This document shows, piece by piece, positions 7,853 to 55,672 of a stretch of DNA of 64,000 nt. Position numbers and translations under genes: made by a program. The stretch lies in contig VFIW01000038.1 of the NCBI GenBank assembly GCA_006386115.1, positions 485,248 through 549,247 of the forward strand, in the 5' to 3' direction. Each line of letters begins with the position of its first letter. Position 1 is the stretch's first letter. The stretch comes from Globisporangium splendens (taxonomy: Eukaryota; Oomycota; Peronosporomycetes; Pythiales; Pythiaceae). The notes under the pieces are model-generated. The model worked only from the letters and a program-made list of their open reading frames with translations, was not told the DNA's origin and made no database searches.

Positions 7853-7999
7853 TCTGTTCTAATCAGTGTGAAAACTGATTGCCGGGCGACAAACCCGGCT
7901 TTATTTTCACATTCATTTTTGAGGGTGTCGCCTGGCAGAGCAGCTTGCTGTGAGCCTGCGACCGGTCTCCCGGGGATTGCACTCTCCCCCGGCGAGGCC
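7853..7999 (+). ncRNA. U2 snRNA 3' segment, type A (A2 leader)
   Basis: 147 nt with all U2 elements from IIa to IV intact, including the full G-C closing pair of IIb and Sm site ATTTTTGA. The 5' part of U2 is absent; element A1 abuts it directly. Confidence 0.78.
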
Positions 8000-8112
8000 C
8001 ACTACACTTGACTCTTTCTACACTCCGACTTCCTCCCATCCCTCTCTCTCCGCGCACACTCTCTCTTTCTTCTAATTCTAGTCTCGTACTGAATTTAGTT
8101 AGTTTAGAGAGG

Positions 8113-11100
8113 ATGCGCTTCTTCTGGCCGCTGCGCGACCGCTCCCCGTCCACGGACAGCGAGTGCTCCACAGCCAGTCAGAGCAGCCTCGCCAGCGACG
8201 CGTCTTTTTATAGCGCAGCTGGCGGGGAGGAGATGAGCACCGCGCCCTCTCGCCCAGCGGACCCGATAGTGGACCTCCGAGGGGATCCGCCAGCGGATCC
8301 ACTGGGGGATCCACCAGAGGATCCGCTGGGGGACCAGCCGCCCATGCCGTGCTTCACGTTTGGAGCCGGCTGGGAGCCGCAAGACCCCCTCCGAGTCGCC
8401 GCGGGAGGTGCAAGCTTCCCGGGCCCCCAGCCACCCCCAGGCGCTGCAACTTCGGGCACGGGTGCGCAACCTGCTGCGCCCATTGCACCTCAACGTGCTG
8501 CGGCGCGGACGACCTCTGGCAGAAATGACAGAATCGCGCCGTCCTCCGCGCCGCAGCTCGTTTTTGACATCGAAGCGCCGTCCGCCCGATCCGCTCCGGG
8601 CGGACGGGTCCAAGATCCGAGCGGACGCGCCCTCCCCCCAGCTTTTCTCGGTCTCCCACTGACCGAGAACCGAGCTGATGGCGCTGCCCCAACAGCAGCG
8701 CCTCGAGCCCCGACGCCAGCCGAAGCCCCCCTCGACCGCGCCAGCCACACTGGCTCGCTCCGACCACCAGCGACTCTCCCGCCGACCGCCGCCGACTCCC
8801 TCGCCGACTGCGCGCCCCCCGCTCTCCCTGACCCCCCTTGTGCTCGCCCAGAACGAGGCGAATCGCTCGCCGATGGGCGAGCACCCGATCTCGCCACCGA
8901 GCGTGACGAGATTCCAGCACCAGCGCCACCGTCTTCCCCCCGTGAACTCTTGCAGCCGCTCAACGGCAGCTCCCAAGACGTGGCGCTGGCGGTGTACGCG
9001 CACAACGCCGCGCTCTTTGAGTGCACGTTGTGTGCGCACACCGCGCGGGATCTCGCCGCGCTCCAACAGCATCGGCGCTCCGCGCACCGCAACACCCGCT
9101 TCGTGGACCACTTCCACAGCGGGTGCGCGTGCGGCGTGAGCTTTTTCTCGCGTGCGGCGGCGACCAAGCACGCGCGCGAATGTCCAGAGAGCGCGTTCTC
9201 GGCCGCCGCCGCCGCGCGCACCGCAGCGGCCAACACCGCAGGTATGTCTCTCGGCGCCGACGAACGCGACGACCTCGCGTCCGCCGGCGTCTTGCATGAT
9301 GTTGCATCCCCCGCCTTTGGCAGCATTTTGCCGGCTGCGCTTGCGACCGCGGCAGACGCACCGAGCGCCACCGCGACCGCAGACGCAGCCACGCAGCAGA
9401 GCACTGTGCCCCCCGCTGCCGCCCAACCCCCCGGCGTGCGCACGTCCCCCCCGTGCCGCGCGCCCTCTCGCCACCGTCCGCGCTGCGGATTGGTGGCAAA
9501 CGCCGACGCCTCAACGGCGACGACGACGACAGCGGCGGTGACCTCGATGTGCTGATGCACGACGAGGACATCGCTGCACACGTGGAGGCGCTCCCAGAGC
9601 CGCACCACAACGGCGCAGCAGCACCTGTGCCGACCGGCCCCGCGACCACGCGCCGCCGCCACACGCGATGGGGACCCAGAGTGCTCGTGAACGTGGCGCG
9701 CCTTCCGCGCCGCACTCACACACGCTGGGGCCCTCCACTCCACCGCGACCACCAGCATGCAGCAAACATGGAGAACTCGAACCAGCTGCGGGTGGCCGCG
9801 GCGGAGGACGCAGCGACAGCGCGGAACGCGAGCGCAACAGCAGCAGCGACAGCGACGACCGCGCCAACGCGCCAACGACGACGCAGACGACCGACACCAG
9901 CGACGAGCGCGGCAACCGCGACAACCACGACGACACGCGAACCGACGCCGAGTACGACAACAAGCACCAGAGACGCGCCGACGCGCCAACGACGCCGCGG
10001 ACGATCGAGAGCGGCGACAACAACGACGAGCGCGCCGACTGCGAACACGAGCGCGACGACGGCGACACCTGCGACGACGACACGCGCGACACCTGCGAGC
10101 GCGACAACGACAGCAACGACTCGAACCAAGGCACCGGGTCCGACGGCAACAGCGACGGCCACAGCTCCGACGGCGACACCATCGGACGCAACCTGGACCC
10201 TGCGATTTGACGGCGCATGCCGCCACAACCCAGGGCCAGGCGGAGCTGGCGCAGCGCTGTTCGCCCCCGACGGAGCCGTAGTATGGACTTGCGTCCACTA
10301 CATGCCCGGCACCGAGACGAACAACACGGCCGAGTACACGGCCATGCTGACGGGTGTCGAGAGCGCAGTGCAGCACGGCGCCACGAGCCTGCGCGTGGAA
10401 GGCGACAGCCACCTTGTGCTGTCGCAGGTACGCGGCACGTTCGCCTGCGCGAACAAACGCCTGCGCGGCCTGCGCAACCGCGTCCGCGCGGCACTGCGGC
10501 GCATCGAGTGCACGCGGCTGGTGCACATCGACCGGCAGGCCAACGCGCACGCCGACCGCCTCGCCAACCGCGCGCTCGACACCAAGCGCACCAAGACTCA
10601 GTGCGCGCAGCACTGTGAGGGCGATGAGCGCTGCTACCACCCTGAGCGGCCCCTGGCGTCCCGCAGCGAACGGCCAGCACCCGAGCAACAGCGCAGCGAC
10701 CACGGCGACTCCGCCCACGACCACGCCGACAACGACGTGGACATGGAAGCGGACGAGGCCGACGCCGCGACAGCAGCGCGCAATGAAGGCGAGCTCTTTC
10801 CGGCCATGCCGCTCAGCGCGGACGCGTTCCCTGCCCGGCAGCCGCGACTGCGCCTCCGTCAGCTCAGCGACGAGGAATTCGACGCAGCCGCGGCGGCCGT
10901 GGAGCAGATGGCGCAGATCTGGGCGTGCCGCATTGACGACGCCCCAGATTGGGACACGGGCGAAGGGTACATCCAGGCCCTACCCACCCAGCTCCGCGCC
11001 GCGCTCCAGCAGTACAGCGTCCCCCCGCCCGTCCAGCCGCCAGCGCGCCGCACCCGTGCGCCGCCCAAGCCAGCCCGACCGTCGCGCACTGCGCACGACC

Positions 11101-14030
11101 ACCGCGAGCAGCGTCTCGACGAGGCGCTCGACGACCTCGCGGCAGTGCAGCAGCGCGCCGCGCCCGACCGCCAGCAAATCAAGAAGGCGCGGCGGCGGGT
11201 GGCGAGGATCCGGGCGGCGCTCGAGACCCAGCGCGTGCGCCAGCAGTTTGGGACGCGCGAACGCGAGTGCGTCGAGGCCATCCTCGCGCGCGCGCATCCA
11301 GACGCGACGGCACCGTCGCCGGCCACGTGCCCGCTGCCGAGCGAGACGCTCCAGCAACACTTTACGGGCACGTGCACGCCGGCGACGACCTTTGACTACG
11401 ACGCCGCTGAGGGCGCCAAGTTCCGCGACTCGATCCGACCGTCGGCCACGACCGAGGAACACGACGCCGACGCACTGTGCGACGCGCCGACGGTCGACGA
11501 GGTCGAGGACCAGCTCAAACGCGCGAAGGCGGCGACGAGCCCCGGCCACGATGGCATCGGGTACGACGTGCTCAAGCGTTTCGCAACGCAAATCGCGCCG
11601 ATGCTCGCCGCCGCCTTCGCGTTCTGCTGGCGCCACCAGCGCGTACCGGCCGTGTGGAAGGTCGGCAACGTCCGCTTGATCCACAAGAAGGGAGACGCTG
11701 TCGACCCATCCAACTGGCGGCCGATTTGCCTCCAGCCCACCGTGTACAAACTTTACACCGGGCTGCTCGCGCAGCGCCTGTCACGATGGCTGGAGGCAAA
11801 CGGCCGCCTGCCGATGACGCAGAAGGGGTTTCGGCCATTCAACGGGTGCCACGAGAACAATTTCGTGAGCACCACGTTGCTGGACCAGACCCGGCGCCTG
11901 CACCGCAAGTTGTACCTCGTCTGGTACGACTTGCGGGACGCGTTCGGCTCGCTGCCGCAGCAGCTTATGTGGAGCGTGCTGGCAGACATGGGCGCGGCAC
12001 CAGAGTTTGTGCAGCGCTGCCGCACGCTCTACGCGGACGCGTCCTTCACCATCACCAACGCCGCGGACGGCACCACACAGCCGATCCGTCGCGAGGTGGG
12101 GGTGTTCCAAGGCTGTCCGCTGAGCCCACTTCTCTTCATCACCGCGCTCGCACCGCTGCAACGCGTGCTCGAGCGGCTTGATGGCGTCGGCGTTGCGCTC
12201 GCGGACGGCGTGCGACCGTGCTGCGCAGCGTACGCCGACGACATTAAGGTTTACTGTGACAGCGCCGACGGCATCCGCCGGTGCCACGACGCTGTCACAC
12301 AATTCTTGTCGTGGACGGGGTTGCGTGCGAACCCAAAGAAATGCGCAGCCCTCGGAGTCACAACGAATGCGCGTGGCAACCCCGTCCTCGACAAGACTCT
12401 CCAGCTCGCCGTGGACGACGAAGCCATCCCCACGCTCGGGCTACATGAGTCCTACGCGTACCTCGGCGTGGGTGATGGCTTCGACCACGTGCGCCACCGC
12501 CTCCAGCTCGAACCCAAGCTCAAGCAGCTCAAGCTGGAGGCGGTGGCGCTACTGCGATCGGAGCTGGCGCCATGGCAGATTCTCAAGGCGCTCAAGGTAT
12601 ACATCTACCCGAAGGTAGAGTACGCCTTGCGGCACCTACGCCCGCTCCGATCGCAGCTCGAAGGCTTCGACCGAGCAGTCAGCCGCGGCATGCGCCACCT
12701 GCTGCGCCTCCCACCCACCGCGACGACAGAGATCCTCTACTCGCCAACGTCTAGCGGTGGGTTGGGACTATTGCCTCTCGTGGAGACACACCAGGCGCTC
12801 CAGGTGGCGCACGCATGGCAGATGCTGCACTCCAAGGACCTTGCGATCCGCGCCATTGCGCGAGAGCAGGTCGTGCAGATCTGCCGCACGCGCCACACTC
12901 TGGACGTCGAGCACTGGCGAGACGGCGAGCGCAGAGAAGAGATGGTGCAGCTCTTTCTCAACTCGAAGCTCGCCGATTCGCCACACGCCCCGTCCAAGCG
13001 ACGCAACGGCGACATCGGTTCGCTCTGGGTGGACGTCCAGCGCCACCTGCGGACATGGGAGCTGGCGCTGGACACCCGCCACGACAACGGCACCACCGAG
13101 CTGCTGCAACTGAAGGTGCCGCACCACCACAAGTGGCTCAGCCACAAAACGGTACTGCGGCACCTGAAGCTGCACCTCAAGCTCCGCCACCTGGAGCGGT
13201 GGAGGTCCATGACGGACCAAGGACGCACTGTGCGCGCACACGGCGGTGCCGGCGCCAAGTTCGTGTCGACTGCGGCGGGCCTGACCGATGCGGAATATCG
13301 GTTCGCGATCCAAGCCCGCCTGAACCAAGTCGACACGAACGCGACGCTCAAGCGCCGCCGCCTACGAGCCAACGCCACCTGCCGCGCACCGAACTGCTCG
13401 AGAGCAGAGACGCTGGCGCACGTTCTCAACCATTGTGCGCCGAACATGGACACAATTCGCCAGCGTCACGACAGCGCACTGGAGCAGATCGGAGCGCAAC
13501 TGCAGTGCATGGTCGACCGCTCCCGTGGATCCCAGGAGATCCGACTGAACCAGACGGTACCGGGATACACGGGAGCGGCGCTCCGACCCGACATCCAGGT
13601 CAGCAATCCAGCGGCCAAGACCATGGTGATTGCCGACCTGGCGATCACCTTTGAAGACCAGCCGGCCAGTCAGCAGGCATCCTCGTCGCTCCAACTCAGC
13701 CACGACCACAAGATCCTCAAATACCAACCGATCGTGGCTGAGTTGCAGCACAAGGGCTGGCGGGTTCAGACGGCGGCCATCATCTACGGCTCGCTCGGCT
13801 CGGTTCACCCCAGCAACTTTGTGACTTACACAGAGAAGCTGGGGCTGCTCAAGCGTGAGGCTCGACGGCTAAACATCCAGCTGTCGAGCCATTGCATCAG
13901 AGCAAGCCACCGCATCTGGAACTGGCATTGCAGCCAGCACCGGATGCGGCAACAAAGCGGCACTGCCTCGCGAGCACCGCGCGGACCTGGGGGGGTCCCG
14001 CGGAGCACATCGCAGGCAGAGGCACGGTAA
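8113..14030 (+). pseudogene. A-type polyprotein of A2, broken by one base lost in a C run
   Basis: The frame starting MRFFWPL at 8113 is intact through the two zinc fingers. At about 9427-9432 a run of seven C, as in all other A copies, has only six C. Translation then leaves the frame and stops at 9555. The correct frame resumes at once and stays open to 14030 through RNase H, RT, zinc knuckle and endonuclease. Everything else matches the intact copies, so restoring one base would give about 1972 aa. Homopolymer loss is a common sequencing error, so functional status is undecided. Confidence 0.87.
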
Positions 14031-14050
14031 GCAGGTCATATTGACCGAAA

Positions 14051-14088
14051 GGGCACCATCCACGTAGGACACCACCCTAGCAAACCCA
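14051..14088 (+). promoter_or_regulatory. Conserved 3' UTR block (A2)
   Basis: Identical to the A1 block, 21 nt after the stop codon, although the next unit is B-type. The block therefore belongs to the upstream element's 3' end. Confidence 0.5.
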
Positions 14089-14185
14089 GTTCAGTATATT
14101 GACACCCTCCACTTAGTGACATGCATATTCAAACCGATACATATTCGTTAGGAGAGGTTACTAACTGGTAATATATCATCATTTC

Positions 14186-14334
14186 TCTGTTCTAATCAGT
14201 GTGAAAACTGATTGCCGGGCGACAAACCCGGCTTTATTTTCACATTTATTTCTGAGCTCGGTCGGACTGCGAGCAGCTTGCTGCCTCGTCTCTGGCTCGG
14301 TTTCCCGGGGATTGCACCTTCCCCCGGCGAGGCC
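14186..14334 (+). ncRNA. U2 snRNA 3' segment, type B (B1 leader)
   Basis: 149 nt. IIa and IIb are identical to type A, but stem-loop III differs strongly in sequence (GAGC...GCTC outside, CGAG...CTCG and CAG-CTTG-CTG inside) and still folds with the CTTG tip. The Sm site is ATTTCTGA, which fits AUUUNUGR. Stem-loop IV has ATTGCA in its loop. The segment follows an A element, yet is of the type of the B element downstream. Confidence 0.77.
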
Positions 14335-14679
14335 AACCCTCTATATTACGGTAGTTGTCTATTCCCTTGTTATCTTTACTGTGTTGTTTATATTTGCTAC
14401 CCTTCTATTTCGCTATTGTTCTTTCTGCTCTTTCGGTAGTCGGAAACAGTACCTAATTAGACAGGCGCAGAGTAGACAGGCGGTAGTGTAACTTGCGTGT
14501 CAAAAAAAAAAAAAGAAGAAAAAAAAAAAAAAAAAAAAAGTCGACCCCACAAAAGAGCACTTTGCCACGCTTCTAGAGCGAACTAAAACAAAAGAAAAAC
14601 ATCAAAAGTAAGAAGACACGCAGGGCTACAAGAGAACACAAGGAATAGATAATTTTACCATAATATATCAACAGTTGGT
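14335..14679 (+). other. B1 5' leader between U2 segment and start codon
   Basis: 345 nt without a supported gene. The first part is T-rich (to about 14440). It is followed by repeated ACAGGCG motifs, an A tract at 14502-14539 whose length differs between B copies, and an A-rich stretch up to the start ATG. Small frames here run through the U2 segment and are not credible. The leader shows no similarity to the A leader. Confidence 0.7.
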
Positions 14680-15483
14680 ATGCGTCTCTACTGGCCCCGT
14701 TTCGAGACCCGCGACCGCGCGGACTCCATCGGGAGCAACGCCTCCACTGTCTCGTCCAGTCAGGGGTCGCTCGGCAGCGATGCCGGCTTCCTCCTAGACA
14801 GCGACGAGGACAGCGACGTCGAGGACGACCTCGACAACGACGAAGACCACCACCACCACGCTCACGAAGACCCGCCGCCGCCACCACCACCCCAAACCCG
14901 CGCCACGGTCACGGAGGTGCACCCGCACAGAGGACCACACTACGTGTGCACTCTGTGTGGGTTCAGCGCCCCCCACATGTTCGTGCTCGGCCGCCACCGC
15001 GCACTCGCACACGAGAATGACCACTTTGTGGACATCTTCACGTGCGAGTGTGCGTGCGACCGGCACTTTACCACCCGCGGTGCTGCTGCTAACCACGAAC
15101 GTGGATGCAGCACCGCCCAGAACACTACCACACTTGGCCTTGCGCCACAGAATGATGGTCCTGACCCGGAGACAGCCGCGCCAAGCAGCATCCCCGAGCC
15201 AGGGCCACCCCCAACCACGATGTCCCCCCCCGCCACGGTACCCGAGCGCACTTCAACGTGCACGAGTACCGTCGGCTACCAAACCGAGGGTGCCAAGAGG
15301 CGCCGCCTCGCCCCTCCCCTCCCCGATGACGAACGTCAGCAAGGTGCCAGTGTACCCCCCTCCCAGACGACGGTGTTCCTCACCGACCTGCTGACGCTCA
15401 CCCGGTACCGAGTACACCAAGACAACGACGCCGCACACCCAGTCCCCCCTCCAGCGACGACAACGACAACAACCAACACTCAG

Positions 15484-15538
15484 GTAAGTATAGTGAACTC
15501 AAATGAAATGGTTATTAACTATGATTATGCCCCTACAG
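15484..15538 (+). other. Intron-like cassette in B1 (55 nt)
   Basis: CAG before GTAAGTATAG, then TTATTAACTATG (branch-like), then CCCCTACAG: every mark of a short GT-AG intron. Unspliced it is in frame. Removing all 55 nt gives a shifted frame that ends after about 70 codons. Using the second donor GTATAG 4 nt downstream removes 51 nt and keeps the polyprotein frame. Confidence 0.55.
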
Positions 15539-16067
15539 CGACGGTTTTCGGCCCCCAGACCGAAAATCCAATATACGAAAACGAGAACCCGAGCACCTAC
15601 GAAGACGACGACGCATGGGCGGAGTCAACCGACAGTGCCCGAGCACAAATCGACATCCCTCCGGCCCAGACCAGCTTTTTTGACGAAGAAAACTCAAGTT
15701 TGGATGCGGCAATTGCGGTTTCTGGCCCTGGGACCGCCGTAACGGCTAATCTCAGGCCAGGAACTCCACGCACAACCGCCGCAACATGTGAGATGACCCA
15801 GGACCCAGCTCCAATGACTGGTCTGAGTGCAGAACCGGCACATTTGACCCAATTTGGACCTGGTGCACCTACGAACCCAGCTCCAGCGACCAGCCCAAGT
15901 ACGGAAAGTGCACTTTTGACCAGATTTGGTGCAAATGCAACCAGGGACCAAGCATCTGGTGCTAGTCCAGGGCCTGTGTCAGCTATTGCTGGTGGCACAG
16001 GAGCAAATGCAAGACCAGAACCGACCGAAAGTGCACTTCCGCGTGCGCGGCCACCCCGCGCGAACCT

Positions 16068-17146
16068 AACTACTGCTCGGAACAGTAGTTTGGGCCCCAG
16101 AAATGCAATTTCTGTGGGGGAAAGTGCAAATGCACGGACAACTACTGCTCCGAGCAGTAGTTTGAGCCATGAGAACGCTCCGCCCGTGCCAGAGAATGCT
16201 CTAGCACGTCTAACTACTGCTCGGAACAGTAGTTTGGGCCCCAGAAATGCAATTTCTGTGGGGGAAAGTGCAAAAATGCAATTTCTGTGGGGGAAAGTGC
16301 AAATGCACGCACAATTACTGCTCCGAGCAGTAGTTTGAGCCATGAGAACGCTCCGCCAGTGCCAGAGAATGCTCTAGCACGTCCAACTACTGCTCGGAAC
16401 AGTAGTTTGGGCCCCAGAAATGCAATTTCTGTGGGGAAAAGTGCAAATGCACGCACAACTACTGCTCCGAGCAGTAGTTTGAGCCATGAGAACGCTCCGC
16501 CCGTGCCAGAGAATGCTCTAGCACGTACAACTACTGCTCGGAACAGTAGTTTGGGCCCCAGAAATGCAATTTCTGTGGGGGAAAGTGCAAATGCACGAAC
16601 AACTACTGCTCCGAGCAGTAGTTTGAGCCATGAGAACGCTCCGCCCGTGCCAGAGAATGCTCTAGCACGTACAACTACTGCTCGGAACAGTAGTTTGGGC
16701 CCCAGAAATGCAATTTCTGTGGGGGAAAGTGCAAATGCACGCACAACTACTGCTCCGAGAAGTAGTTTGAGCCATGAGAACGCTCCGCCCGTGCCAGAGA
16801 ATGCTCTAGCACGTCCAACTACTGCTCGGAACAGTAGTTTGGGCCCCAGAAATGCAATTTCTGTGGGGGAAAGCGCAAATGCACGCACAACTACTGCTCC
16901 GAGCAGTAGTTTGAGCCATGAGAACGCTCCGCCCGTGCCAGAGAATGCTCTAGCACGTCCAACTACTGCTCTGAACAGTAGTTTGGGCCCCAGAAATGCA
17001 ATTTCTGTGGGGGAAAGTGCAAATGCACGCACAACTACTGCTCCGAGCAGTGGTTTGAGCCATGAGAACGCTCCGCCCGTGCCAGAGAATGCTCTAGCAC
17101 GTCCAACTACTGCTCGGAACAGTAGTTTGGGCCCCAGAAATGCAAT
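16068..17146 (+). repeat. 144-bp tandem repeat in B1 (7 units plus partial)
   Basis: Units of 144 bp (48 codons) starting AACTACTGCTCGGAACAGTAG. Each contains two short inverted repeats (ACTACTG...CAGTAGT and ACTACTGCT...AGCAGTAGT). The spacing of first and last unit starts is 1037 bp, seven units plus 29 nt; the 29 nt is a duplicated piece that breaks the frame. Confidence 0.93.
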
Positions 17147-20100: not shown

Positions 20101-21779
20101 TGGATGAAGAGTACTGGAAGGAGCGCACCGAGGAAGCCATCCAACGCTTCCTCAACTCCGACCTGGACTCATCGCTCACGAACATCAGGAAGCGAAGGAA
20201 CGGCGACATCGGCTCGCTCTGGACAGACATCCAGCGCCACCTGGCCACACACCAGCTCCGACTAGCCGATGTCGTCGACCCCAGCTCCGGCGAGCGACAG
20301 TGGCTCCAATTGAAGACCCCGAGCTCCAGGGACTGGCTCGAGCACACCACCGTGCTCCGACAGGTCAAGCTCCACATGAAGAATGCACACCTAAACAGGT
20401 GGAAGGAGATGTCGGACCAAGGACGCACGGTGCGAGCTCAGGGCGGTCCCGGGAGCTCATTCCTCACGCGTGGCACCGGCATGTGGGACAATGACTATGT
20501 CTTTGCAGTCCAAGCGCGCCTCAATCAGCTGGACACCAGGTCGGTGCTCAAGCGAAAAAGGGTGCGTACGAACGCCACATGCCGGTACGCTGAGTGCCGG
20601 AGCACGGAGACACTAGCCCACGTGCTGAACCACTGCCCCGGCACCAGCGACGCGGTGACCAAGCGCCACGACTCCGCGTTGAAGCTGATTACCGACACAC
20701 TCCAGCCCCGAGTGCTCCGATCGCAGGAGCGACTCCAACTCCGAGTCAACGAGACGGTCGAAGGTATGGCAGGTCAGCTCCGGCCAGACCTCCAGCTCTT
20801 CGACACCAGGAGCAAGACGGTGGTGGTCGCCGACCTGGCGATCACCTACGAAGACCACCAGCAGGACGGACCCGAGTTCTCCAGCCTAGCGGCCTCAGCC
20901 CAGCGCAAGATTGAGAAGTACCAACCCATCAAGGTGCATTTGATGCAGCAAGGATGGACGGTACACCTATCTGCACTGGTGTACGGCTCGCTCGGCTCGG
21001 TGCTACCTGGGAACTTCAAGGTATACACCGAGGAGCTCGGGCTCCTGAAGAAGGATGCCAGGCGGCTCAACACCACCATCTCGACCGAAGCGATCAAGGC
21101 GAGCCGCCGCATCTGGAACCTCCACTGCGCCCTACACCGAGGGCCAACCCGACGTGTGGAGACGCAAGCGACGACGCATCCAGATCCAGTCCAGATCCAG
21201 ACTCCAGACCGACGACTCCAGGCCAGTCCTGCTCAACTCCAACATGATCCAGCACCAGAACGCCGGCCCCAACCCACGGACACCCGGGCACCAGCCCCGG
21301 AGCAGCGAAAACGACGCGTGCGAATCACGGCACCGGCACCGGAGCAACAACAGGGAGATCGGCCAGCCACGAACTCGGCACCAGACGAACGGCAGCGACA
21401 CCAGACGCTCCATCACCGGCATCCAGCACCTCCAGGACGACAACCCGAGCTCCAACACCGACTCCCGCCCGTGCGGAACCAACCCAACCAGCCCCGGCAC
21501 CGGCGCCCGACGCTCCGAGGTGGAGCTCCGGTGCACCGAGCTCCAGCGACCGAAACGACGCGACCGACACCGGAACTTCAACGCGGGCAACCAAGCGGCA
21601 CCGGAACGCAAGTGAGACGGTCCACACTGTCCACGAGCATAGCCGGGACAGCAGCAGGGCCCAGATCAGCACCAGCTCCGACCAGAGGGGGGACAGACGG
21701 AGAAGCACGGAGGCCCACGCCTCCGGCGCGCGCAGGCAGATCGACAAGCGACCCCACAGCCACCCGACGACCCCGAAGC

Positions 21780-21963: not shown

Positions 21964-22056
21964 GTGGTCCGGGGGGACCCACCGGCACCAACCAGAGCGT
22001 GTAGTGACTACACATCAAAAGGACATCGTGCGAACCCAGCCTCCCCAAGGCTACCA

Positions 22057-42648: not shown

Positions 42649-42668
42649 GCAGGTCATATTGACCGAAA

Positions 42669-42706
42669 GGGCACCATCCACGTAGGACACCACCCTAGCA
42701 AACCCA
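42669..42706 (+). promoter_or_regulatory. Conserved 3' UTR block (A4)
   Basis: A-type block 21 nt after the stop codon. Confidence 0.5.
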
Positions 42707-42803
42707 GTTCAGTATATTGACACCCTCCACTTAGTGACATGCATATTCAAACCGATACATATTCGTTAGGAGAGGTTACTAACTGGTAATATATCATCAT
42801 TTC

Positions 42804-42950
42804 TCTGTTCTAATCAGTGTGAAAACTGATTGCCGGGCGACAAACCCGGCTTTATTTTCACATTCATTTTTGAGGGTGTCGCCTGGCAGAGCAGCTTGCT
42901 GTGAGCCTGCGACCGGTCTCCCGGGGATTGCACCTTCCCCCGGCGAGGCC
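42804..42950 (+). ncRNA. U2 snRNA 3' segment, type A (A5 leader)
   Basis: 147 nt, with the same GCACCTTC stem IV loop as A4. Confidence 0.78.
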
Positions 42951-43063
42951 CACTACACTTGACTCTTTCTACTTTCCGACTTCCTCCCATCCCTCTCTCT
43001 CCGCGCACACTCTCTCTCTCTTCTAATTTTAGTCTCGTACTGAATTTAGTTAGTTTAGAGAGG

Positions 43064-46000: not shown

Positions 46001-49000
46001 CGCCGCGCTCCAGCAGTACAGCGTCCCCCCGCCCGTCCAGCCGCCAGCGCGCCGCACCCGTGCGCCGCCCAAGCCAGCCCGACCGTCGCGCACTGCGCAC
46101 GACCACCGCGAGCAGCGTCTCGACGAGGCGCTCGACGACCTCGCGGCAGTGCAGCAGCGCGCCGCGCCCGACCGCCAGCAAATCAAGAAGGCGCGGCGGC
46201 GGGTGGCGAGGATCCGGGCGGCGCTCGAGACCCAGCGCGTGCGCCAGCAGTTTGGGACGCGCGAACGCGAGTGCGTCGAGGCCATCCTCGCGCGCGCGCA
46301 TCCAGACGCGACGGCACCGTCGCCGGCCACGTGCCCGCTGCCGAGCGAGACGCTCCAGCAACACTTTACGGGCACGTGCACGCCGGCGACGACCTTTGAC
46401 TACGACGCCGCTGAGGGCGCCAAGTTCCGCGACTCGATCCGACCGTCGGCCACGACCGAGGAACACGACGCCGACGCACTGTGCGACGCGCCGACGGTCG
46501 ACGAGGTCGAGGACCAGCTCAAACGCGCGAAGGCGGCGACGAGCCCCGGCCACGATGGCATCGGGTACGACGTGCTCAAGCGTTTCGCAACGCAAATCGC
46601 GCCGATGCTCGCCGCCGCCTTCGCGTTCTGCTGGCGCCACCAGCGCGTACCGGCCGTGTGGAAGGTCGGCAACGTCCGCTTGATCCACAAGAAGGGAGAC
46701 GCTGTCGACCCATCCAACTGGCGGCCGATTTGCCTCCAGCCCACCGTGTACAAACTTTACACCGGGCTGCTCGCGCAGCGCCTGTCACGATGGCTGGAGG
46801 CAAACGGCCGCCTGCCGATGACGCAGAAGGGGTTTCGGCCATTCAACGGGTGCCACGAGAACAATTTCGTGAGCACCACGTTACTGGACCAGACCCGGCG
46901 CCTGCACCGCAAGTTGTACCTCGTCTGGTACGACTTGCGGGACGCGTTCGGCTCGCTGCCGCAGCAGCTTATGTGGAGCGTGCTGGCAGACATGGGCGCG
47001 GCACCAGAGTTTGTGCAGCGCTGCCGCACGCTCTACGCGGACGCGTCCTTCACCATCACCAACGCCGCGGACGGCACCACACAGCCGATCCGTCGCGAGG
47101 TGGGGGTGTTCCAAGGCTGTCCGCTGAGCCCACTTCTCTTCATCACCGCGCTCGCACCGCTGCAACGCGTGCTCGAGCGGCTTGATGGCGTCGGCGTTGC
47201 GCTCGCGGACGGCGTGCGACCGTGCTGCGCAGCGTACGCCGACGACATTAAGGTTTACTGTGACAGCGCCGACGGCATCCGCCGGTGCCACGACGCTGTC
47301 ACACAATTCTTGTCGTGGACGGGGTTGCGTGCGAACCCAAAGAAATGCGCAGCCCTCGGAGTCACAACGAATGCGCGTGGCAACCCCGTCCTCGACAAGA
47401 CTCTCCAGCTCGCCGTGGACGACGAAGCCATCCCCACGCTCGGGCTACATGAGTCCTACGCGTACCTCGGCGTGGGTGATGGCTTCGACCACGTGCGCCA
47501 CCGCCTCCAGCTCGAACCCAAGCTCAAGCAGCTCAAGCTGGAGGCGGTGGCGCTACTGCGATCGGAGCTGGCGCCATGGCAGATTCTCAAGGCGCTCAAG
47601 GTATACATCTACCCGAAGGTAGAGTACGCCTTGCGGCACCTACGCCCGCTCCGATCGCAGCTCGAAGGCTTCGACCGAGCAGTCAGCCGCGGCATGCGCC
47701 ACCTGCTGCGTCTCCCACCCACCGCGACGACAGAGATCCTCTACTCGCCAACGTCTAGCGGTGGGTTGGGACTATTGCCTCTCGTGGAGACACACCAGGC
47801 GCTCCAGGTGGCGCACGCATGGCAGATGCTGCACTCCAAGGACCTTGCGATCCGCGCCATTGCGCGAGAGCAGGTCGTGCAGATCTGCCGCACGCGCCAC
47901 ACTCTGGACGTCGAGCACTGGCGAGACGGCGAGCGCAGAGAAGAGATGGTGCAGCTCTTTCTCAACTCGAAGCTCGCCGATTCGCCACACGCCCCGTCCA
48001 AGCGACGCAACGGCGACATCGGTTCGCTCTGGGTGGACGTCCAGCGCCACCTGCGGACATGGGAGCTGGCGCTGGACACCCGCCACGACAACGGCACCAC
48101 CGAGCTGCTGCAACTGAAGGTGCCGCACCACCACAAGTGGCTCAGCCACAAAACGGTACTGCGGCACCTGAAGCTGCACCTCAAGCTCCGCCACCTGGAG
48201 CGGTGGAGGTCCATGACGGACCAAGGACGCACTGTGCGCGCACACGGCGGTGCCGGCGCCAAGTTCGTGTCGACTGCGGCGGGCCTGACCGATGCGGAAT
48301 ATCGGTTCGCGATCCAAGCCCGCCTGAACCAAGTCGACACGAACGCGACGCTCAAGCGCCGCCGCCTACGAGCCAACGCCACCTGCCGCGCACCGAACTG
48401 CTCGAGAGCAGAGACGCTGGCGCACGTTCTCAACCACTGTGCGCCGAACATGGACACAATTCGCCAGCGTCACGACAGCGCACTGGAGCAGATCGGAGCG
48501 CAACTGCAGTGCATGGTCGACCGCTCCCGTGGATCCCAGGAGATCCGACTGAACCAGACGGTACCGGGATACACGGGAGCGGCGCTCCGACCCGACATCC
48601 AGGTCAGCAATCCAGCGGCCAAGACCATGGTGATTGCCGACCTGGCGATCACCTTTGAAGACCAGCCGGCCAGTCAGCAGGCATCCTCGTCGCTCCAACT
48701 CAGCCACGACCACAAGATCCTCAAATACCAACCGATCGTGGCTGAGTTGCAGCACAAGGGCTGGCGGGTTCAGACGGCGGCCATCATCTACGGCTCGCTC
48801 GGCTCGGTTCACCCCAGCAACTTTGTGACTTACACAGAGAAGCTGGGGCTGCTCAAGCGTGAGGCTCGACGGCTAAACATCCAGCTGTCGAGCCATTGCA
48901 TCAGAGCAAGCCACCGCATCTGGAACTGGCATTGCAGCCAGCACCGGATGCGGCAACAAAGCGGCACTGCCTCGCGAGCACCGCGCGGACCTGGGGGGGT

Positions 49001-49034
49001 CCCGCGGAGCACATCGCAGGCAGAGGCACGGTAA
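43064..49034 (+). pseudogene. A-type polyprotein of A5, one-base insertion in the N-terminal region
   Basis: The frame from MRFFWPL (43064) runs to about 43729, where ACTCTCGCCGCC replaces ACTCTCCCGCC of A4, one base more. The first frame then ends at 43783. The frame after the insertion is open to 49034 and contains both zinc fingers, RNase H, RT with YADD near 47235, zinc knuckle and endonuclease without further damage. The lesion lies in a Pro-rich, C-rich stretch before the fingers, close to where A1 is also damaged. The ATG at 43629 happens to be in the downstream frame, but no copy supports it as a real start. Confidence 0.86.
44475..44552 (+). repeat. 39-bp tandem repeat in A5 (2 units)
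   Basis: Two perfect units from 44475 and 44514. Confidence 0.95.
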
Positions 49035-49054
49035 GCAGGTCATATTGACCGAAA

Positions 49055-49092
49055 GGGCACCATCCACGTAGGACACCACCCTAGCAAACCCA
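49055..49092 (+). promoter_or_regulatory. Conserved 3' UTR block (A5)
   Basis: A-type block 21 nt after the stop codon. Confidence 0.5.
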
Positions 49093-49189
49093 GTTCAGTA
49101 TATTGACACCCTCCACTTAGTGACATGCATATTCAAACCGATACATATTCGTTAGGAGAGGTTACTAACTGGTAATATATCATCATTTC

Positions 49190-49336
49190 TCTGTTCTAAT
49201 CAGTGTGAAAACTGATTGCCGGGCGACAAACCCGGCTTTATTTTCACATTCATTTTTGAGGGTGTCGCCTGGCAGAGCAGCTTGCTGTGAGCCTGCGACC
49301 GGTCTCCCGGGGATTGCACTCTCCCCCGGCGAGGCC
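49190..49336 (+). ncRNA. U2 snRNA 3' segment, type A (A6 leader)
   Basis: 147 nt, matching the A2 and A3 segments; U2 elements IIa to IV intact. Confidence 0.78.
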
Positions 49337-49449
49337 CACTACACTTGACTCTTTCTACTTTCCGACTTCCTCCCATCCCTCTCTCTCCGCGCACACTCTC
49401 TCTTTCTTCTAATTTTAGTCTCGTACTGAATTTAGTTAGTTTAGAGAGG

Positions 49450-52400
49450 ATGCGCTTCTTCTGGCCGCTGCGCGACCGCTCCCCGTCCACGGACAGCGAG
49501 TGCTCCACAGCCAGTCAGAGCAGCCTCGCCAGCGACGCGTCTTTTTATAGCGCAGCTGGCGGGGAGGAGATGAGCACCGCGCCCTCTCGCCCAGCGGACC
49601 CGATAGTGGACCTCCGAGGGGATCCGCCAGCGGATCCACTGGGGGATCCACCAGAGGATCCGCTGGGGGACCAGCCGCCCATGCCGTGCTTCACGTTTGG
49701 AGCCGGCTGGGAGCCGCAAGACCCCCTCCGAGTCGCCGCGGGAGGTGCAAGCTTCCCGGGCCCCCAGCCACCCCCAGGCGCTGCAACTTCGGGCACGGGT
49801 GCGCAACCTGCTGCGCCCATTGCACCTCAACGTGCTGCGGCGCGGACGACCTCTGGCAGAAATGACAGAATCGCGCCGTCCTCCGCGCCGCAGCTCGTTT
49901 TTGACATCGAAGCGCCGTCCGCCCGATCCGCTCCGGGCGGACGGGTCCAAGATCCGAGCGGACGCGCCCTCCCCCCAGCTTTTCTCGGTCTCCCACTGAC
50001 CGAGAACCGAGCTGATGGCGCTGCCCCAACAGCAGCGCCTCGAGCCCCGACGCCAGCCGAAGCCCCCCTCGACCGCGCCAGCCACACTGGCTCGCTCCGA
50101 CCACCAGCGACTCTCCCGCCGACCGCCGCCGACTCCCTCGCCGACCGCGCGCCCCCCGCTCTCCCTGACCCCCCTTGTGCTCGCCCAGAACGAGGCGAAT
50201 CGCTCGCCGATGGGCGAGCACCCGATCTCGCCACCGAGCGTGACGAGATTCCAGCACCAGCGCCACCGTCTTCCCCCCGTGAACTCTTGCAGCCGCTCGA
50301 CGGCAGCTCCCAAGACGTGGCGCTGGCGGTGTACGCGCACAACGCCGCGCTCTTTGAGTGCACGTTGTGTGCGCACACCGCGCGGGATCTCGCCGCGCTC
50401 CAACAGCATCGGCGCTCCGCGCACCGCAACACCCGCTTCGTGGACCACTTCCACAGCGGGTGCGCGTGCGGCGTGAGCTTTTTCTCGCGTGCGGCGGCGA
50501 CCAAGCACGCGCGCGAATGTCCAGAGAGCGCGCTCTCGGCCGCCGCCGCCGCGCGCACCGCAGCGGCCAACACCGCAGGTATGTCTCTCGGCGCCGACGA
50601 ACGCGACGACCTCGCGTCCGCCGGCGTCTTGCATGATGTTGCATCCCCCGCCTTTGGCAGCATTTTGCCGGCTGCGCTTGCGACCGCGGCAGACGCACCG
50701 AGCGCCACCGCGACCGCAGACGCAGCCACGCAGCAGAGCACTGTGCCCCCCGCTGCCGCCCAACCCCCCCGGCGTGCGCACGTCCCCCCCGTGCCGCGCG
50801 CCCTCTCGCCACCGTCCGCGCTGCGGATTGGTGGCAAACGCCGACGCCTCAACGGCGACGACGACGACAGCGGCGGTGACCTCGATGTGCTGATGCACGA
50901 CGAGGACATCGCTGCACACGTGGAGGCGCTCCCAGAGCCGCACCACAACGGCGCAGCAGCACCTGTGCCGACCGGCCCCGCGACCACGCGCCGCCGCCAC
51001 ACGCGATGGGGACCCAGAGTGCTCGTGAACGTGGCGCGCCTTCCGCGCCGCACTCACACACGCTGGGGCCCTCCACTCCACCGCGACCACCAGCATGCAG
51101 CAAACATGGAGAACTCGAACCAGCTGCGGGTGGCCGCGGCGGAGGACGCAGCGACAGCGCGGAACGCGAGCGCAACAGCAGCAGCGACAGCGACGACCGC
51201 GCCAACGCGCCAACGACGACGCAGACGACCGACACCAGCGACGAGCGCGGCAACCGCGACAACCACGACGACACGCGAACCGACGCCGAGTACGACAACA
51301 AGCACCAGAGACGCGCCGACGCGCCAACGACGCCGCGGACGATCGAGAGCGGCGACAACAACGACGAGCGCGCCGACTGCGAACACGAGCGCGACGACGG
51401 CGACACCTGCGACGACGACACGCGCGACACCTGCGAGCGCGACAACGACAGCAACGACTCGAACCAAGGCACCGGGTCCGACGGCAACAGCGACGGCCAC
51501 AGCTCCGACGGCGACACCATCGGACGCAACCTGGACCCTGCGATTTGACGGCGCATGCCGCCACAACCCAGGGCCAGGCGGAGCTGGCGCAGCGCTGTTC
51601 GCCCCCGACGGAGCCGTAGTATGGACTTGCGTCCACTACATGCCCGGCACCGAGACGAACAACACGGCCGAGTACACGGCCATGCTGACGGGTGTCGAGA
51701 GCGCAGTGCAGCACGGCGCCACGAGCCTGCGCGTGGAAGGCGACAGCCACCTTGTGCTGTCGCAGGTACGCGGCACGTTCGCCTGCGCGAACAAACGCCT
51801 GCGCGGCCTGCGCAACCGCGTCCGCGCGGCACTGCGGCGCATCGAGTGCACGCGGCTGGTGCACATCGACCGGCAGGCCAACGCGCACGCCGACCGCCTC
51901 GCCAACCGCGCGCTCGACACCAAGCGCACCAAGACTCAGTGCGCGCAGCACTGTGAGGGCGATGAGCGCTGCTACCACCCTGAGCGGCCCCTGGCGTCCC
52001 GCAGCGAACGGCCGGCACCCGAGCAACAGCGCAGCGACCACGGCGACTCCGCCCACGACCACGCCGACAACGACGTGGACATGGAAGCGGACGAGGCCGA
52101 CGCCGCGACAGCAGCGCGCAATGAAGGCGAGCTCTTTCCGGCCATGCCGCTCAGCGCGGACGCGTTCCCTGCCCGGCAGCCGCGACTGCGCCTCCGTCAG
52201 CTCAGCGACGAGGAATTCGACGCAGCCGCGGCGGCCGTGGAGCAGATGGCGCAGATCTGGGCGTGCCGCATTGACGACGCCCCAGATTGGGACACGGGCG
52301 AAGGGTACATCCAGGCCCTACCCACCCAGCTCCGCGCCGCGCTCCAGCAGTACAGCGTCCCCCCGCCCGTCCAGCCGCCAGCGCGCCGCACCCGTGCGCC

Positions 52401-55368
52401 GCCCAAGCCAGCCCGACCGTCGCGCACTGCGCACGACCACCGCGAGCAGCGTCTCGACGAGGCGCTCGACGACCTCGCGGCAGTGCAGCAGCGCGCCGCG
52501 CCCGACCGCCAGCAAATCAAGAAGGCGCGGCGGCGGGTGGCGAGGATCCGGGCGGCGCTCGAGACCCAGCGCGTGCGCCAGCAGTTTGGGACGCGCGAAC
52601 GCGAGTGCGTCGAGGCCATCCTCGCGCGCGCGCATCCAGACGCGACGGCACCGTCGCCGGCCACGTGCCCGCTGCCGAGCGAGACGCTCCAGCAACACTT
52701 TACGGGCACGTGCACGCCGGCGACGACCTTTGACTACGACGCCGCTGAGGGCGCCAAGTTCCGCGACTCGATCCGACCGTCGGCCACGACCGAGGAACAC
52801 GACGCCGACGCACTGTGCGACGCGCCGACGGTCGACGAGGTCGAGGACCAGCTCAAACGCGCGAAGGCGGCGACGAGCCCCGGCCACGATGGCATCGGGT
52901 ACGACGTGCTCAAGCGTTTCGCAACGCAAATCGCGCCGATGCTCGCCGCCGCCTTCGCGTTCTGCTGGCGCCACCAGCGCGTACCGGCCGTGTGGAAGGT
53001 CGGCAACGTCCGCTTGATCCACAAGAAGGGAGACGCTGTCGACCCATCCAACTGGCGGCCGATTTGCCTCCAGCCCACCGTGTACAAACTTTACACCGGG
53101 CTGCTCGCGCAGCGCCTGTCACGATGGCTGGAGGCAAACGGCCGCCTGCCGATGACGCAGAAGGGGTTTCGGCCATTCAACGGGTGCCACGAGAACAATT
53201 TCGTGAGCACCACGTTGCTGGACCAGACCCGGCGCCTGCACCGCAAGTTGTACCTCGTCTGGTACGACTTGCGGGACGCGTTCGGCTCGCTGCCGCAGCA
53301 GCTTATGTGGAGCGTGCTGGCAGACATGGGCGCGGCACCAGAGTTTGTGCAGCGCTGCCGCACGCTCTACGCGGACGCGTCCTTCACCATCACCAACGCC
53401 GCGGACGGCACCACACAGCCGATCCGTCGCGAGGTGGGGGTGTTCCAAGGCTGTCCGCTGAGCCCACTTCTCTTCATCACCGCGCTCGCACCGCTGCAAC
53501 GCGTGCTCGAGCGGCTTGATGGCGTCGGCGTTGCGCTCGCGGACGGCGTGCGACCGTGCTGCGCAGCGTACGCCGACGACATTAAGGTTTACTGTGACAG
53601 CGCCGACGGCATCCGCCGGTGCCACGACGCTGTCACACAATTCTTGTCGTGGACGGGGTTGCGTGCGAACCCAAAGAAATGCGCAGCCCTCGGAGTCACA
53701 ACGAATGCGCGTGGCAACCCCGTCCTCGACAAGACTCTCCAGCTCGCCGTGGACGACGAAGCCATCCCCACGCTCGGGCTACATGAGTCCTACGCGTACC
53801 TCGGCGTGGGTGATGGCTTCGACCACGTGCGCCACCGCCTCCAGCTCGAACCCAAGCTCAAGCAGCTCAAGCTGGAGGCGGTGGCGCTACTGCGATCGGA
53901 GCTGGCGCCATGGCAGATTCTCAAGGCGCTCAAGGTATACATCTACCCGAAGGTAGAGTACGCCTTGCGGCACCTACGCCCGCTCCGATCGCAGCTCGAA
54001 GGCTTCGACCGAGCAGTCAGCCGCGGCATGCGCCACCTGCTGCGTCTCCCACCCACCGCGACGACAGAGATCCTCTACTCGCCAACGTCTAGCGGTGGGT
54101 TGGGACTATTGCCTCTCGTGGAGACACACCAGGCGCTCCAGGTGGCGCACGCATGGCAGATGCTGCACTCCAAGGACCGTGCAATCCGCGCCATTGCGCG
54201 AGAGCAGGTCGTGCAGATCTGCCGCACGCGCCACACTCTGGACGTCGAGCACTGGCGAGACAGCGAGCGTAGAGAAGAGATGGTGCAGCTCTTTCTCAAC
54301 TCGAAGCTCGCCGATTCGCCACACGCCCCGTCCAAGCGACGCAACGGCGACATCGGTTCGCTCTGGGTGGACGTCCAGCGCCACCTGCGGACATGGGAGC
54401 TGGCGCTGGACACCCGCCACGACAACGGCACCACCGAGCTGCTGCAACTGAAGGTGCCGCACCACCACAAGTGGCTCAGCCACAAAACGGTACTGCGGCA
54501 CCTGAAGCTGCACCTCAAGCTCCGCCACCTGGAGCGGTGGAGGTCCATGACGGACCAAGGACGCACTGTGCGCGCACACGGCGGTGCCGGCGCCAAGTTC
54601 GTGTCGACTGCGGCGGGCCTGACCGATGCGGAATATCGGTTCGCGATCCAAGCCCGCCTGAACCAAGTCGACACGAACGCGACGCTCAAGCGCCGCCGCC
54701 TACGAGCCAACGCCACCTGCCGCGCACCGAACTGCTCGAGAGCAGAGACGCTGGCGCACGTTCTCAACCATTGTGCGCCGAACATGGACACAATTCGCCA
54801 GCGTCACGACAGCGCACTGGAGCAGATCGGAGCGCAACTGCAGTGCATGGTCGACCGCTCCCGTGGATCCCAGGAGATCCGACTGAACCAGACGGTACCG
54901 GGATACACGGGAGCGGCGCTCCGACCCGACATCCAGGTCAGCAATCCAGCGGCCAAGACCATGGTGATTGCCGACCTGGCGATCACCTTTGAAGACCAGC
55001 CGGCCAGTCAGCAGGCATCCTCGTCGCTCCAACTCAGCCACGACCACAAGATCCTCAAATACCAACCGATCGTGGCTGAGTTGCAGCACAAGGGCTGGCG
55101 GGTTCAGACGGCGGCCATCATCTACGGCTCGCTCGGCTCGGTTCACCCCAGCAACTTTGTGACTTACACAGAGAAGCTGGGGCTGCTCAAGCGTGAGGCT
55201 CGACGGCTAAACATCCAGCTGTCGAGCCATTGCATCAGAGCAAGCCACCGCATCTGGAACTGGCATTGCAGCCAGCACCGGATGCGGCAACAAAGCGGCA
55301 CTGCCTCGCGAGCACCGCGCGGACCTGGGGGGGTCCCGCGGAGCACATCGCAGGCAGAGGCACGGTAA
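49450..55368 (+). CDS. A-type polyprotein of A6, intact
   Basis: 1972 aa from MRFFWPL, uninterrupted. It is the shortest intact A protein, because it has a single DDDSGGDLDVLMH unit and lacks the four residues (APAS) inserted in the linker of A3-A5. Fingers, RNase H catalytic residues, YADD (near 53569), C-x4-C-x7-H-x4-C knuckle (near 54718) and RPD...D...E endonuclease (near 54922) are all conserved. With A3 and A4 it is one of three A copies able to make a full protein. Confidence 0.92.
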   Translation: MRFFWPLRDRSPSTDSECSTASQSSLASDASFYSAAGGEEMSTAPSRPADPIVDLRGDPPADPLGDPPEDPLGDQPPMPCFTFGAGWEPQDPLRVAAGGASFPGPQPPPGAATSGTGAQPAAPIAPQRAAARTTSGRNDRIAPSSAPQLVFDIEAPSARSAPGGRVQDPSGRALPPAFLGLPLTENRADGAAPTAAPRAPTPAEAPLDRASHTGSLRPPATLPPTAADSLADRAPPALPDPPCARPERGESLADGRAPDLATERDEIPAPAPPSSPRELLQPLDGSSQDVALAVYAHNAALFECTLCAHTARDLAALQQHRRSAHRNTRFVDHFHSGCACGVSFFSRAAATKHARECPESALSAAAAARTAAANTAGMSLGADERDDLASAGVLHDVASPAFGSILPAALATAADAPSATATADAATQQSTVPPAAAQPPRRAHVPPVPRALSPPSALRIGGKRRRLNGDDDDSGGDLDVLMHDEDIAAHVEALPEPHHNGAAAPVPTGPATTRRRHTRWGPRVLVNVARLPRRTHTRWGPPLHRDHQHAANMENSNQLRVAAAEDAATARNASATAAATATTAPTRQRRRRRPTPATSAATATTTTTREPTPSTTTSTRDAPTRQRRRGRSRAATTTTSAPTANTSATTATPATTTRATPASATTTATTRTKAPGPTATATATAPTATPSDATWTLRFDGACRHNPGPGGAGAALFAPDGAVVWTCVHYMPGTETNNTAEYTAMLTGVESAVQHGATSLRVEGDSHLVLSQVRGTFACANKRLRGLRNRVRAALRRIECTRLVHIDRQANAHADRLANRALDTKRTKTQCAQHCEGDERCYHPERPLASRSERPAPEQQRSDHGDSAHDHADNDVDMEADEADAATAARNEGELFPAMPLSADAFPARQPRLRLRQLSDEEFDAAAAAVEQMAQIWACRIDDAPDWDTGEGYIQALPTQLRAALQQYSVPPPVQPPARRTRAPPKPARPSRTAHDHREQRLDEALDDLAAVQQRAAPDRQQIKKARRRVARIRAALETQRVRQQFGTRERECVEAILARAHPDATAPSPATCPLPSETLQQHFTGTCTPATTFDYDAAEGAKFRDSIRPSATTEEHDADALCDAPTVDEVEDQLKRAKAATSPGHDGIGYDVLKRFATQIAPMLAAAFAFCWRHQRVPAVWKVGNVRLIHKKGDAVDPSNWRPICLQPTVYKLYTGLLAQRLSRWLEANGRLPMTQKGFRPFNGCHENNFVSTTLLDQTRRLHRKLYLVWYDLRDAFGSLPQQLMWSVLADMGAAPEFVQRCRTLYADASFTITNAADGTTQPIRREVGVFQGCPLSPLLFITALAPLQRVLERLDGVGVALADGVRPCCAAYADDIKVYCDSADGIRRCHDAVTQFLSWTGLRANPKKCAALGVTTNARGNPVLDKTLQLAVDDEAIPTLGLHESYAYLGVGDGFDHVRHRLQLEPKLKQLKLEAVALLRSELAPWQILKALKVYIYPKVEYALRHLRPLRSQLEGFDRAVSRGMRHLLRLPPTATTEILYSPTSSGGLGLLPLVETHQALQVAHAWQMLHSKDRAIRAIAREQVVQICRTRHTLDVEHWRDSERREEMVQLFLNSKLADSPHAPSKRRNGDIGSLWVDVQRHLRTWELALDTRHDNGTTELLQLKVPHHHKWLSHKTVLRHLKLHLKLRHLERWRSMTDQGRTVRAHGGAGAKFVSTAAGLTDAEYRFAIQARLNQVDTNATLKRRRLRANATCRAPNCSRAETLAHVLNHCAPNMDTIRQRHDSALEQIGAQLQCMVDRSRGSQEIRLNQTVPGYTGAALRPDIQVSNPAAKTMVIADLAITFEDQPASQQASSSLQLSHDHKILKYQPIVAELQHKGWRVQTAAIIYGSLGSVHPSNFVTYTEKLGLLKREARRLNIQLSSHCIRASHRIWNWHCSQHRMRQQSGTASRAPRGPGGVPRSTSQAEAR

Positions 55369-55388
55369 GCAGGTCATATTGACCGAAA

Positions 55389-55426
55389 GGGCACCATCCA
55401 CGTAGGACACCACCCTAGCAAACCCA
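55389..55426 (+). promoter_or_regulatory. Conserved 3' UTR block (A6)
   Basis: A-type block 21 nt after the stop codon, before a B unit. Confidence 0.5.
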
Positions 55427-55523
55427 GTTCAGTATATTGACACCCTCCACTTAGTGACATGCATATTCAAACCGATACATATTCGTTAGGAGAGGTTACT
55501 AACTGGTAATATATCATCATTTC

Positions 55524-55672
55524 TCTGTTCTAATCAGTGTGAAAACTGATTGCCGGGCGACAAACCCGGCTTTATTTTCACATTTATTTCTGAGCTCGGT
55601 CGGACTGCGAGCAGCTTGCTGCCTCGTCTCTGGCTCGGTTTCCCGGGGATTGCACCTTCCCCCGGCGAGGCC
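55524..55672 (+). ncRNA. U2 snRNA 3' segment, type B (B3 leader)
   Basis: 149 nt, type B, although it follows an A element. All elements from IIa to IV are present, with Sm site ATTTCTGA. Confidence 0.77.

Follow-up and report, generated by a model that had tools for sequence, protein, structure and literature searches.

The stretch of DNA analysed here (the window: 64,000 nucleotides, C131:485248-549247) belongs to the 53.3-Mb genome of the plant-infecting oomycete Globisporangium splendens, the published draft of which (strain rgcb-1) was assembled from PacBio and Illumina reads (PMC7163027). It carries an array in which 3' parts of the U2 small nuclear RNA (snRNA) gene alternate with elements resembling, by their sequence, the Utopia non-long terminal repeat (non-LTR) retrotransposons of oomycetes. 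The best explanation, which we regard as fairly probable, is a repeating unit composed of the 3' part of the target snRNA gene (hereafter the leader) plus the element, each insertion completing the gene that it splits and displacing the old 3' part. The insertion appears to leave the gene whole because the units start at the cut site and reach the gene end, a complete gene heads every visible array, and no U2 5' stub next to a leaderless element was found among the exact matches. A first-pass annotation of the window had already proposed that an element inserts while bringing its own U2 3' part, and the linkage between U2 type and element, the complete U2 at the left ends and the lack of leaderless stubs argue in its favor. 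All results concern one species and one assembly and rest on sequence only; array order depends on the assembly of near-identical repeats, the local joints, of a few hundred bases each, being the safer evidence.

U2 segments and the elements downstream

Ten U2 3' segments were found within the window, nine of them at or above the Rfam cut-off (RF00004), and each is followed by an element of type A or type B, the complete elements measuring 6-8 kb. They begin at U2 nt 39, at window positions 1529, 7853, 14186, 22182, 29995, 36419, 42804, 49190, 55524 and 62669, which confirms the segment positions named in the first-pass annotation, with the insertion point that it had set at about U2 nt 39-46 corrected to a cut at nt 38/39. 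The two versions of the segment do differ in stem III as it had claimed, 65 of 66 columns being identical in the first part and 30 of 49 in the next (the stem III region). Genome-wide, 35 U2 segments starting at nt 39 were found, all in arrays on C131, C97 and C7; 32 are preceded by an element-type 3' end and the other three by U2 nt 1-38. A type, A or B, could be given to 34, the remaining one, which closes the C7 array on the right, representing a third type. In all 34 typed cases the type of the segment was that of the element downstream. U2 nt 1-38 precedes three of these, and an A or B 3' end the other 31; among the 31, 22 lie between like elements and nine between unlike ones, and all nine mixed junctions, including the four described in the first-pass annotation, match the downstream element (2^-9 = 0.002 if the junctions are taken as independent coin tosses, their independence being uncertain). 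Between mixed junctions of the same direction (B to A, or A to B) every pair is at least 5 substitutions per 1.5 kb apart on one side or the other, the closest pair (458937 and 486775) having 5 substitutions upstream and 2 downstream; array copies in general differ about as much.

The same linkage bears on a long target-site duplication as the source of the repeated U2 part. With the bottom strand nicked at the insertion site and the top-strand cut placed at the snRNA 3' end, 65-151 nt would be duplicated and a complete gene left, so that the gene would likewise be preserved, and the A/B linkage would come from later recombination between arrays within the ~66 nt common to A and B. An A element entering a B-led gene should then leave B before A, an order seen at none of the nine mixed junctions (0/9), all nine of which would therefore have to be crossovers; we regard a duplication as unlikely. 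It would also make 5'-truncated insertions harmless, and none was seen among the 34 typed U2 units, of which 32 pass from the U2 end into the exact element 5' end, one shows small changes there and one a deletion. Hard to reconcile with it, too, is the right-end U2 of C7, of a different type and with stem III arms that still pair. Two chimeric elements outside the window (C131:430530-442849 and, on the reverse strand of C7, 34919-45153) carry an A leader plus the first 1.5-1.75 kb of A (~98-99%) on bodies only 72-80% like A, leader and 5' module moving together across bodies.

The left flank of the array, where the first-pass annotation expected a complete U2 gene joined to the first element, lies outside the window, and its expectation held: at C131:361942, C131:400111 and C97:15546 a complete U2 leads directly into a type B element. 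These are all the complete U2 genes found, and every complete U2 gene found therefore carries an element-borne 3' part. Upstream, the two C131 genes have unrelated surroundings (blastn gave no match, and 58 of 200 bases were equal), and the two loci are alike from U2 nt 1 onward (389 of 408 columns); the element stretch behind C131:361942 is noisy, only 94% like other copies. The first C131 array stops at a single N (C131:388273), which separates the two C131 arrays. C131:400111 and C97:15546 are probably alleles, judging from 96.3% identity over a 3.8-kb alignment ending in U2 and element. A reading of C97 as an allelic copy whose left edge differs was given up, the flank being 96.3% alike but the units without one-to-one pairing.

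Of the four places that match U2 nt 25-39 exactly, none shows a U2 5' part running into an element that lacks the leader, the arrangement that would have contradicted the proposal (72 matches with one or two mismatches were left aside, giving 76 in all vs 51 for a control). Three of the four are the complete U2 genes. The fourth, C112:288210, was rejected as a leaderless insertion: it consists of U2 nt 1-39, with two mismatches, and a short tail between AAATTTGCAACT repeats, matches nothing of the arrays beyond U2, and is apparently a retropseudogene (C112:288210-288248) flanked by 12-bp direct repeats. A repeat resembling part of its flank was noticed by eye at C67:598420.

The intact U2 upstream of Utopia in Phytophthora has been read differently, as the trace of a deletion on insertion, an account which the Utopia passages of Kojima and Jurka (2015; PMC4640811) offered with other causes left open. 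The top strand would be cut upstream, the 5' stub lost, and the element would land behind a neighboring intact U2. Such a deletion predicts neither a link between type and element nor a fixed joint, against the 34/34 link and the nearly constant joint observed, and each insertion would cost a gene where few snRNA genes were found; it appears to us highly improbable. The genome search, in which the best 46 of 519 (U2), 41 of 862 (U1) and 46 of 1462 (U5) candidates were scored, gave lower bounds of at least three complete U2, at least two complete U1, at least three U5 (one low-scoring), at least one U4 and at least two U6 genes.

A and B leaders are identical at 128 of 151 columns, followed by 80 nt without similarity (shuffle p 0.93), and stem III arms pair best within their own type for A, B and the type labeled C, as do stem IV arms for C; given that identity and the pairing of stem III within types, the leaders look selected as U2 RNA. 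Likeness between the 3' flanks of type B and C7 U2 was not significant (p 0.13). The snRNA part could instead be kept for the sake of the element RNA, as an Sm-binding, snRNP-like (small nuclear ribonucleoprotein) 5' domain providing stability or nuclear import, with gene repair as a by-product. The U2 leader types do contain the Sm-site region and stem-loops, the role of the Sm site in them being one that we presume, yet this leaves unexplained why, in all three target genes (see below), the leader begins at the respective cut site, and as the principal reason it seems very doubtful, even if both roles may coexist. Within the last 40 bases before the U2 segments, the sequence is TTACTAACTGGTAATATATCA at A 3' ends, GTTAAT in B and CACTAAC in the element that precedes the right-end U2 of C7. 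U2 recognizes TACTAAC as the branch-point consensus, and the presence of this motif in A may, given the other two forms, be due to chance.

The elements encode an RNase H (RVT_3) upstream of the reverse transcriptase (RT; RVT_1), an order found in A and B as well as in the lineages D (P0041), E (P0023) and F (P0035) described below. The RT of the A protein matches R2 proteins, which, like the domain order, is in line with oomycete Utopia, and in A and B it is followed by an RPD-x-D motif, a putative restriction-like endonuclease motif, the endonuclease profile itself giving no match. A stop-free frame of at least 1900 codons is present in 20 of 31 full-length units. In an RT tree (37 rows hand-chosen from 89 hits, quick method with Shimodaira-Hasegawa-like approximate likelihood ratio support only, some forks open and no named Utopia reference included), A, B, D, E and F occupy separate branches, all of them among oomycete RTs, and share the unit layout. 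The 3' junction at U2 nt 39 that characterizes Utopia is found in A and B; D, E and F lie in U1 or U5 and are for this reason called Utopia-like.

Along the window, with all features on the forward strand, elements were delimited by blastn against an A and a B reference (the window elements from bases 8008 and 22338, respectively), to which those of the same type are ~98-100% identical, and leaders by Rfam hits and junction sequence; outside the window some element stretches are noisier (94-95%) or come from other bodies. The array enters with the 3' part of a type B element (1-1528, of the C131:478019 unit, with the B 3' end at the junction), followed by a type A leader running from U2 nt 39 to the gene 3' end (1529-1675; RF00004 hit 1500-1683, between B 3' end and A 5' end) and a type A element with its long frame split in two (1676-7852; 99.8% to the A reference). 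A second type A leader (7853-7999) and the A reference element (8000-14185) precede a change to type B, with a B leader after the A element (14186-14334), a B element (14335-22181), another B leader (22182-22330) and the B reference element (22331-29994). B elements such as the latter contain, in their 5' third, a variable tandem array with a period of ~144 bp, whose copy number varies by unit. Type A resumes with a leader after the B element (29995-30141) and an element (30142-36418) with a 2037-aa frame (30150-36263), RNase H upstream of RT and the RPD-x-D motif after RT, and continues with three leaders (36419-36565, 42804-42950 and 49190-49336), each followed by a type A element (36566-42803, 42951-49189 and 49337-55523, respectively). 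A type B leader after the last of these (55524-55672) introduces a B element (55673-62668) with a 2157-aa frame (56018-62491). The window closes (62669-64000) with a type B leader that lacks stem IV and a type B element that lacks its first bases and is truncated where the contig ends; what is missing at 62669-62790 reflects either a deletion that occurred once the copy had become internal or an error of assembly close to the end of the contig.

The same anatomy at U1 and U5 genes

Arrays of other Utopia-like lineages on C123, C34 and C125 contain U1 instead of U2 at their junctions. Here the cut is at U1 nt 10/11 and the leader, of ~151 nt, reaches the gene 3' end. The only complete U1 genes found, C125:411830 and C123:132422, each run into an element, and twelve further U1 segments without nt 1-10 stand after an element 3' end and before an element 5' start. 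Five of these twelve internal junctions are mixed; D and E leaders are identical, hence one junction is informative, C34:1050406 (E' before, D after; D was placed by junction sequence), and it carries the downstream variant. The sequences of D and E stay alike for about ten bases beyond the U1 gene end. The last U1 segment, C123:68610, is diverged and no D or E start is present in the 300 bases read after it, with a U5 gene 1.5 kb further on.

At U5, lineage F forms a tandem pair on C67 behind a complete gene (C67:587335), and the internal junction consists of U5 nt 54-118, corresponding to a cut near nt 53/54 and a leader of ~65 nt that again reaches the gene 3' end. The U5 genes on C162 and C123 have no F element after them, their likeness to the leaders ending at the U5 3' end. 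Leader lengths at the three targets are therefore 147-149 (U2), 151 (U1) and 65 nt (U5), all reaching about the gene 3' end; an equal length of ~150 nt as a fixed geometry was considered and dropped on account of the 65-nt U5 leader. For the long target-site duplication weighed above, these figures mean a stagger that must stop at the gene end at ~65, 149 and 151 nt. The left and internal U5 copies on C67 differ, moreover, at 3 of 65 positions, the internal one equalling a gene elsewhere; that D and E U1 leaders are identical, that copies are recombinant mosaics and that the left U5 copy on C67 fits the local 5' stub speak, on the other hand, for a duplication.

All six array left ends that are visible consist of a complete snRNA gene running into an element: U2 at C131:361942, C131:400111 and C97, U1 at C125:411830 and C123:132422, and U5 at C67:587335, two of them (those of C131:400111 and C97) probably allelic. 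The ends left of C7 and C34 and right of C131, C34, C125, C97 and the F arrays lie outside view. With U1 and U5 sharing the layout, gene completion becomes a more general idea than the U2 arrays would have suggested.

A possible route of insertion and its difficulties

Under the gene-completing reading, the element endonuclease would nick a complete snRNA gene, and the element RNA, probably read through from the snRNA promoter, would carry the gene 3' part at its 5' end. Target-primed reverse transcription would copy this RNA including the leader, and the far cDNA end would anneal to the target across the shared snRNA sequence. The 5' stub (38 nt of U2, 10 of U1, ~53 of U5) would thereby receive a new 3' part, the gene staying complete and the old 3' part ending up downstream of the new element; repeated insertion would produce an array growing at its 5' end behind one working gene. 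A leader in the RNA is favored because the U2 type follows the element, the U5 copies differ, the leader length tracks the gene end and no 5' truncation was seen among the 34 U2 units. Annealing within the snRNA part would let similar leaders homogenize, as for U1, and would leave divergent ones, such as the U2 A and B types with their different stem III, attached to the element that bears them.

Growth at the left edge, as put forward in the first-pass annotation, fits the anatomy of the arrays, and the right ends, with the third-type U2 of C7 (no A, B or E protein match in the next 15 kb) and the diverged U1 of C123, fit displaced old 3' parts. The age gradient that would complete this picture is not readable. 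Close relatives among the copies often occur in other arrays and not as neighbors, and the copies being mosaics, recombination also shapes the arrays. An alternative history would have the units spread mainly as DNA, the tandem copies multiplying by unequal crossing-over, gene conversion or reinsertion of circles at snRNA homology, with retrotransposition rare or past. Near-identical mosaic copies and A 5' modules joined to other bodies would suit it; the frequent location of close relatives in other arrays, the long stop-free frames kept in 20/31 full-length units, and the unrelated flanks and three target genes, which require insertion at some point, would not, and we consider it quite improbable as the main process.

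Several observations weigh against gene completion by an element-borne leader, or at least against its simplest form. We infer, and favor, the carriage of the leader in element RNA from sequence. The U2 gene at C131:361942 deviates at two places within stem I and may be a pseudogene or an assembly error, and a complete gene with an A leader was not seen in the assembly. Stem IV arms can be exchanged between A and B, and in A several stem III pairs of the Rfam consensus are non-standard, so that the case for constraint rests on the folded hairpins. No Rfam match to a ribozyme like that of hepatitis delta virus (HDV) was obtained at the A and B 5' ends, where only a sub-cut-off RNaseP-T appeared on the other strand; the scan, covering ribozyme types known to Rfam, gave U1 or U5 only in the E, E' and F stretches (D was left out). 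The mosaic nature of the copies and the unreadable age gradient belong here as well, as does the possibility that assembly of near-identical repeats misplaced units, the single N at C131:388273 being a join. D and E have the same U1 leader over 151 nt and proteins that are only distantly related, hence leaders are not always inherited with the element. The internal U5 leader on C67 equals the element-free U5 gene on C162 at 65 of 65 positions and, in our reading of the sequence, the left U5 (C67:587335-592905; L050, L051) fits its local 5' stub better, with two co-varying stem positions, a pattern that simple leader import does not predict. Annealing with repair in either direction might reconcile the identical D and E leaders with the fit of the C67 U5.

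Comparison with known systems

Whether leaders that complete the target gene are general among oomycete retrotransposons of snRNA genes, represented here by five lineages in three genes, with all complete U1 and U2 genes found and one U5 composed of host 5' stubs and element-borne 3' parts, seems to us evenly balanced. Were it so, a selfish element would pass on and exchange the 3' domains of essential spliceosomal RNAs, the spliceosomal snRNAs would in part belong to a mobile element, and the alternation of A and B runs would be a record of repeated exchange of the host U2 3' domain. Insertion that keeps the gene whole would also offer a natural design by which DNA could be placed in an essential gene with its function spared. 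A search by DNA pattern for relatives in viral and genome contig collections returned 0 matches in each, records of this genome being possibly absent there.

Integrative elements that restore the 3' ends of tRNA genes provide a precedent in which mobile DNA supplies the missing gene end. The likeness to them drawn in the first-pass annotation is borne out by the gene-to-element joint at all six visible left ends (two probably allelic, one with the stem I changes), and the two systems differ in that tRNA genes are restored by recombinase-based DNA integration, vs target-primed reverse transcription as envisaged here. R9 elements of rotifers reportedly generate a long target duplication of 126 bp at insertion, a copy that would be target-derived, whereas the U2 copy in G. 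splendens follows the element type. Identical target copies flanking an element, as expected of R9-like insertion, were not observed in U2 or U5, for unlike types flank the element before each of the nine mixed U2 junctions and the U5 copies differ at 3 of 65 positions; for D and E in U1 the comparison is uninformative, the copies being identical.

Dada-U1 DNA transposons also insert in U1 snRNA genes, but they use a DDE transposase and produce 6-8 bp duplications, and no gene completion is described in the portion of that report dealing with them (PMC3706591). Closer in mechanism are the R2 elements with 28S leaders, which have target-gene sequence at their 5' ends and whose leader cDNA is thought to anneal to the target; in the earwig, every 5' junction contains 22 bp of 28S sequence that lies downstream of the insertion site (Eickbush et al., 2013; PMC3774820). 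The G. splendens leader differs from these in being the whole remainder of the gene (65-151 nt), completing it, and in that no HDV-like ribozyme was matched.

Utopia itself is reported as strictly U2-specific in Phytophthora. It shares with A and B the U2 nt 39 right after the element 3' end and the RNase H upstream of RT, and with G. splendens the presence of several families per U2 array, in addition to the intact U2 upstream in Phytophthora (Kojima and Jurka, 2015; PMC4640811). The U2 5' part is read there as deleted, and the Utopia passages describe neither a link between leader type and element nor gene completion, nor any retrotransposon with U1 or U5 as its target; the likeness suggests, by analogy, that the same leaders exist in Phytophthora Utopia. 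A U1-targeting non-LTR retrotransposon was not found in the literature searched, including the 2015 list of snRNA-targeting elements as far as it is given there (PMC4640811), no search having been aimed at U5. The long survival of several Utopia families in ~10 intact U2 genes was called a surprise in the same passages (PMC4640811), and gene completion could explain how elements survive in genes present in few host copies: if insertion leaves the gene whole, the paradox of Utopia persistence would be gone, and one or two target copies would be enough.

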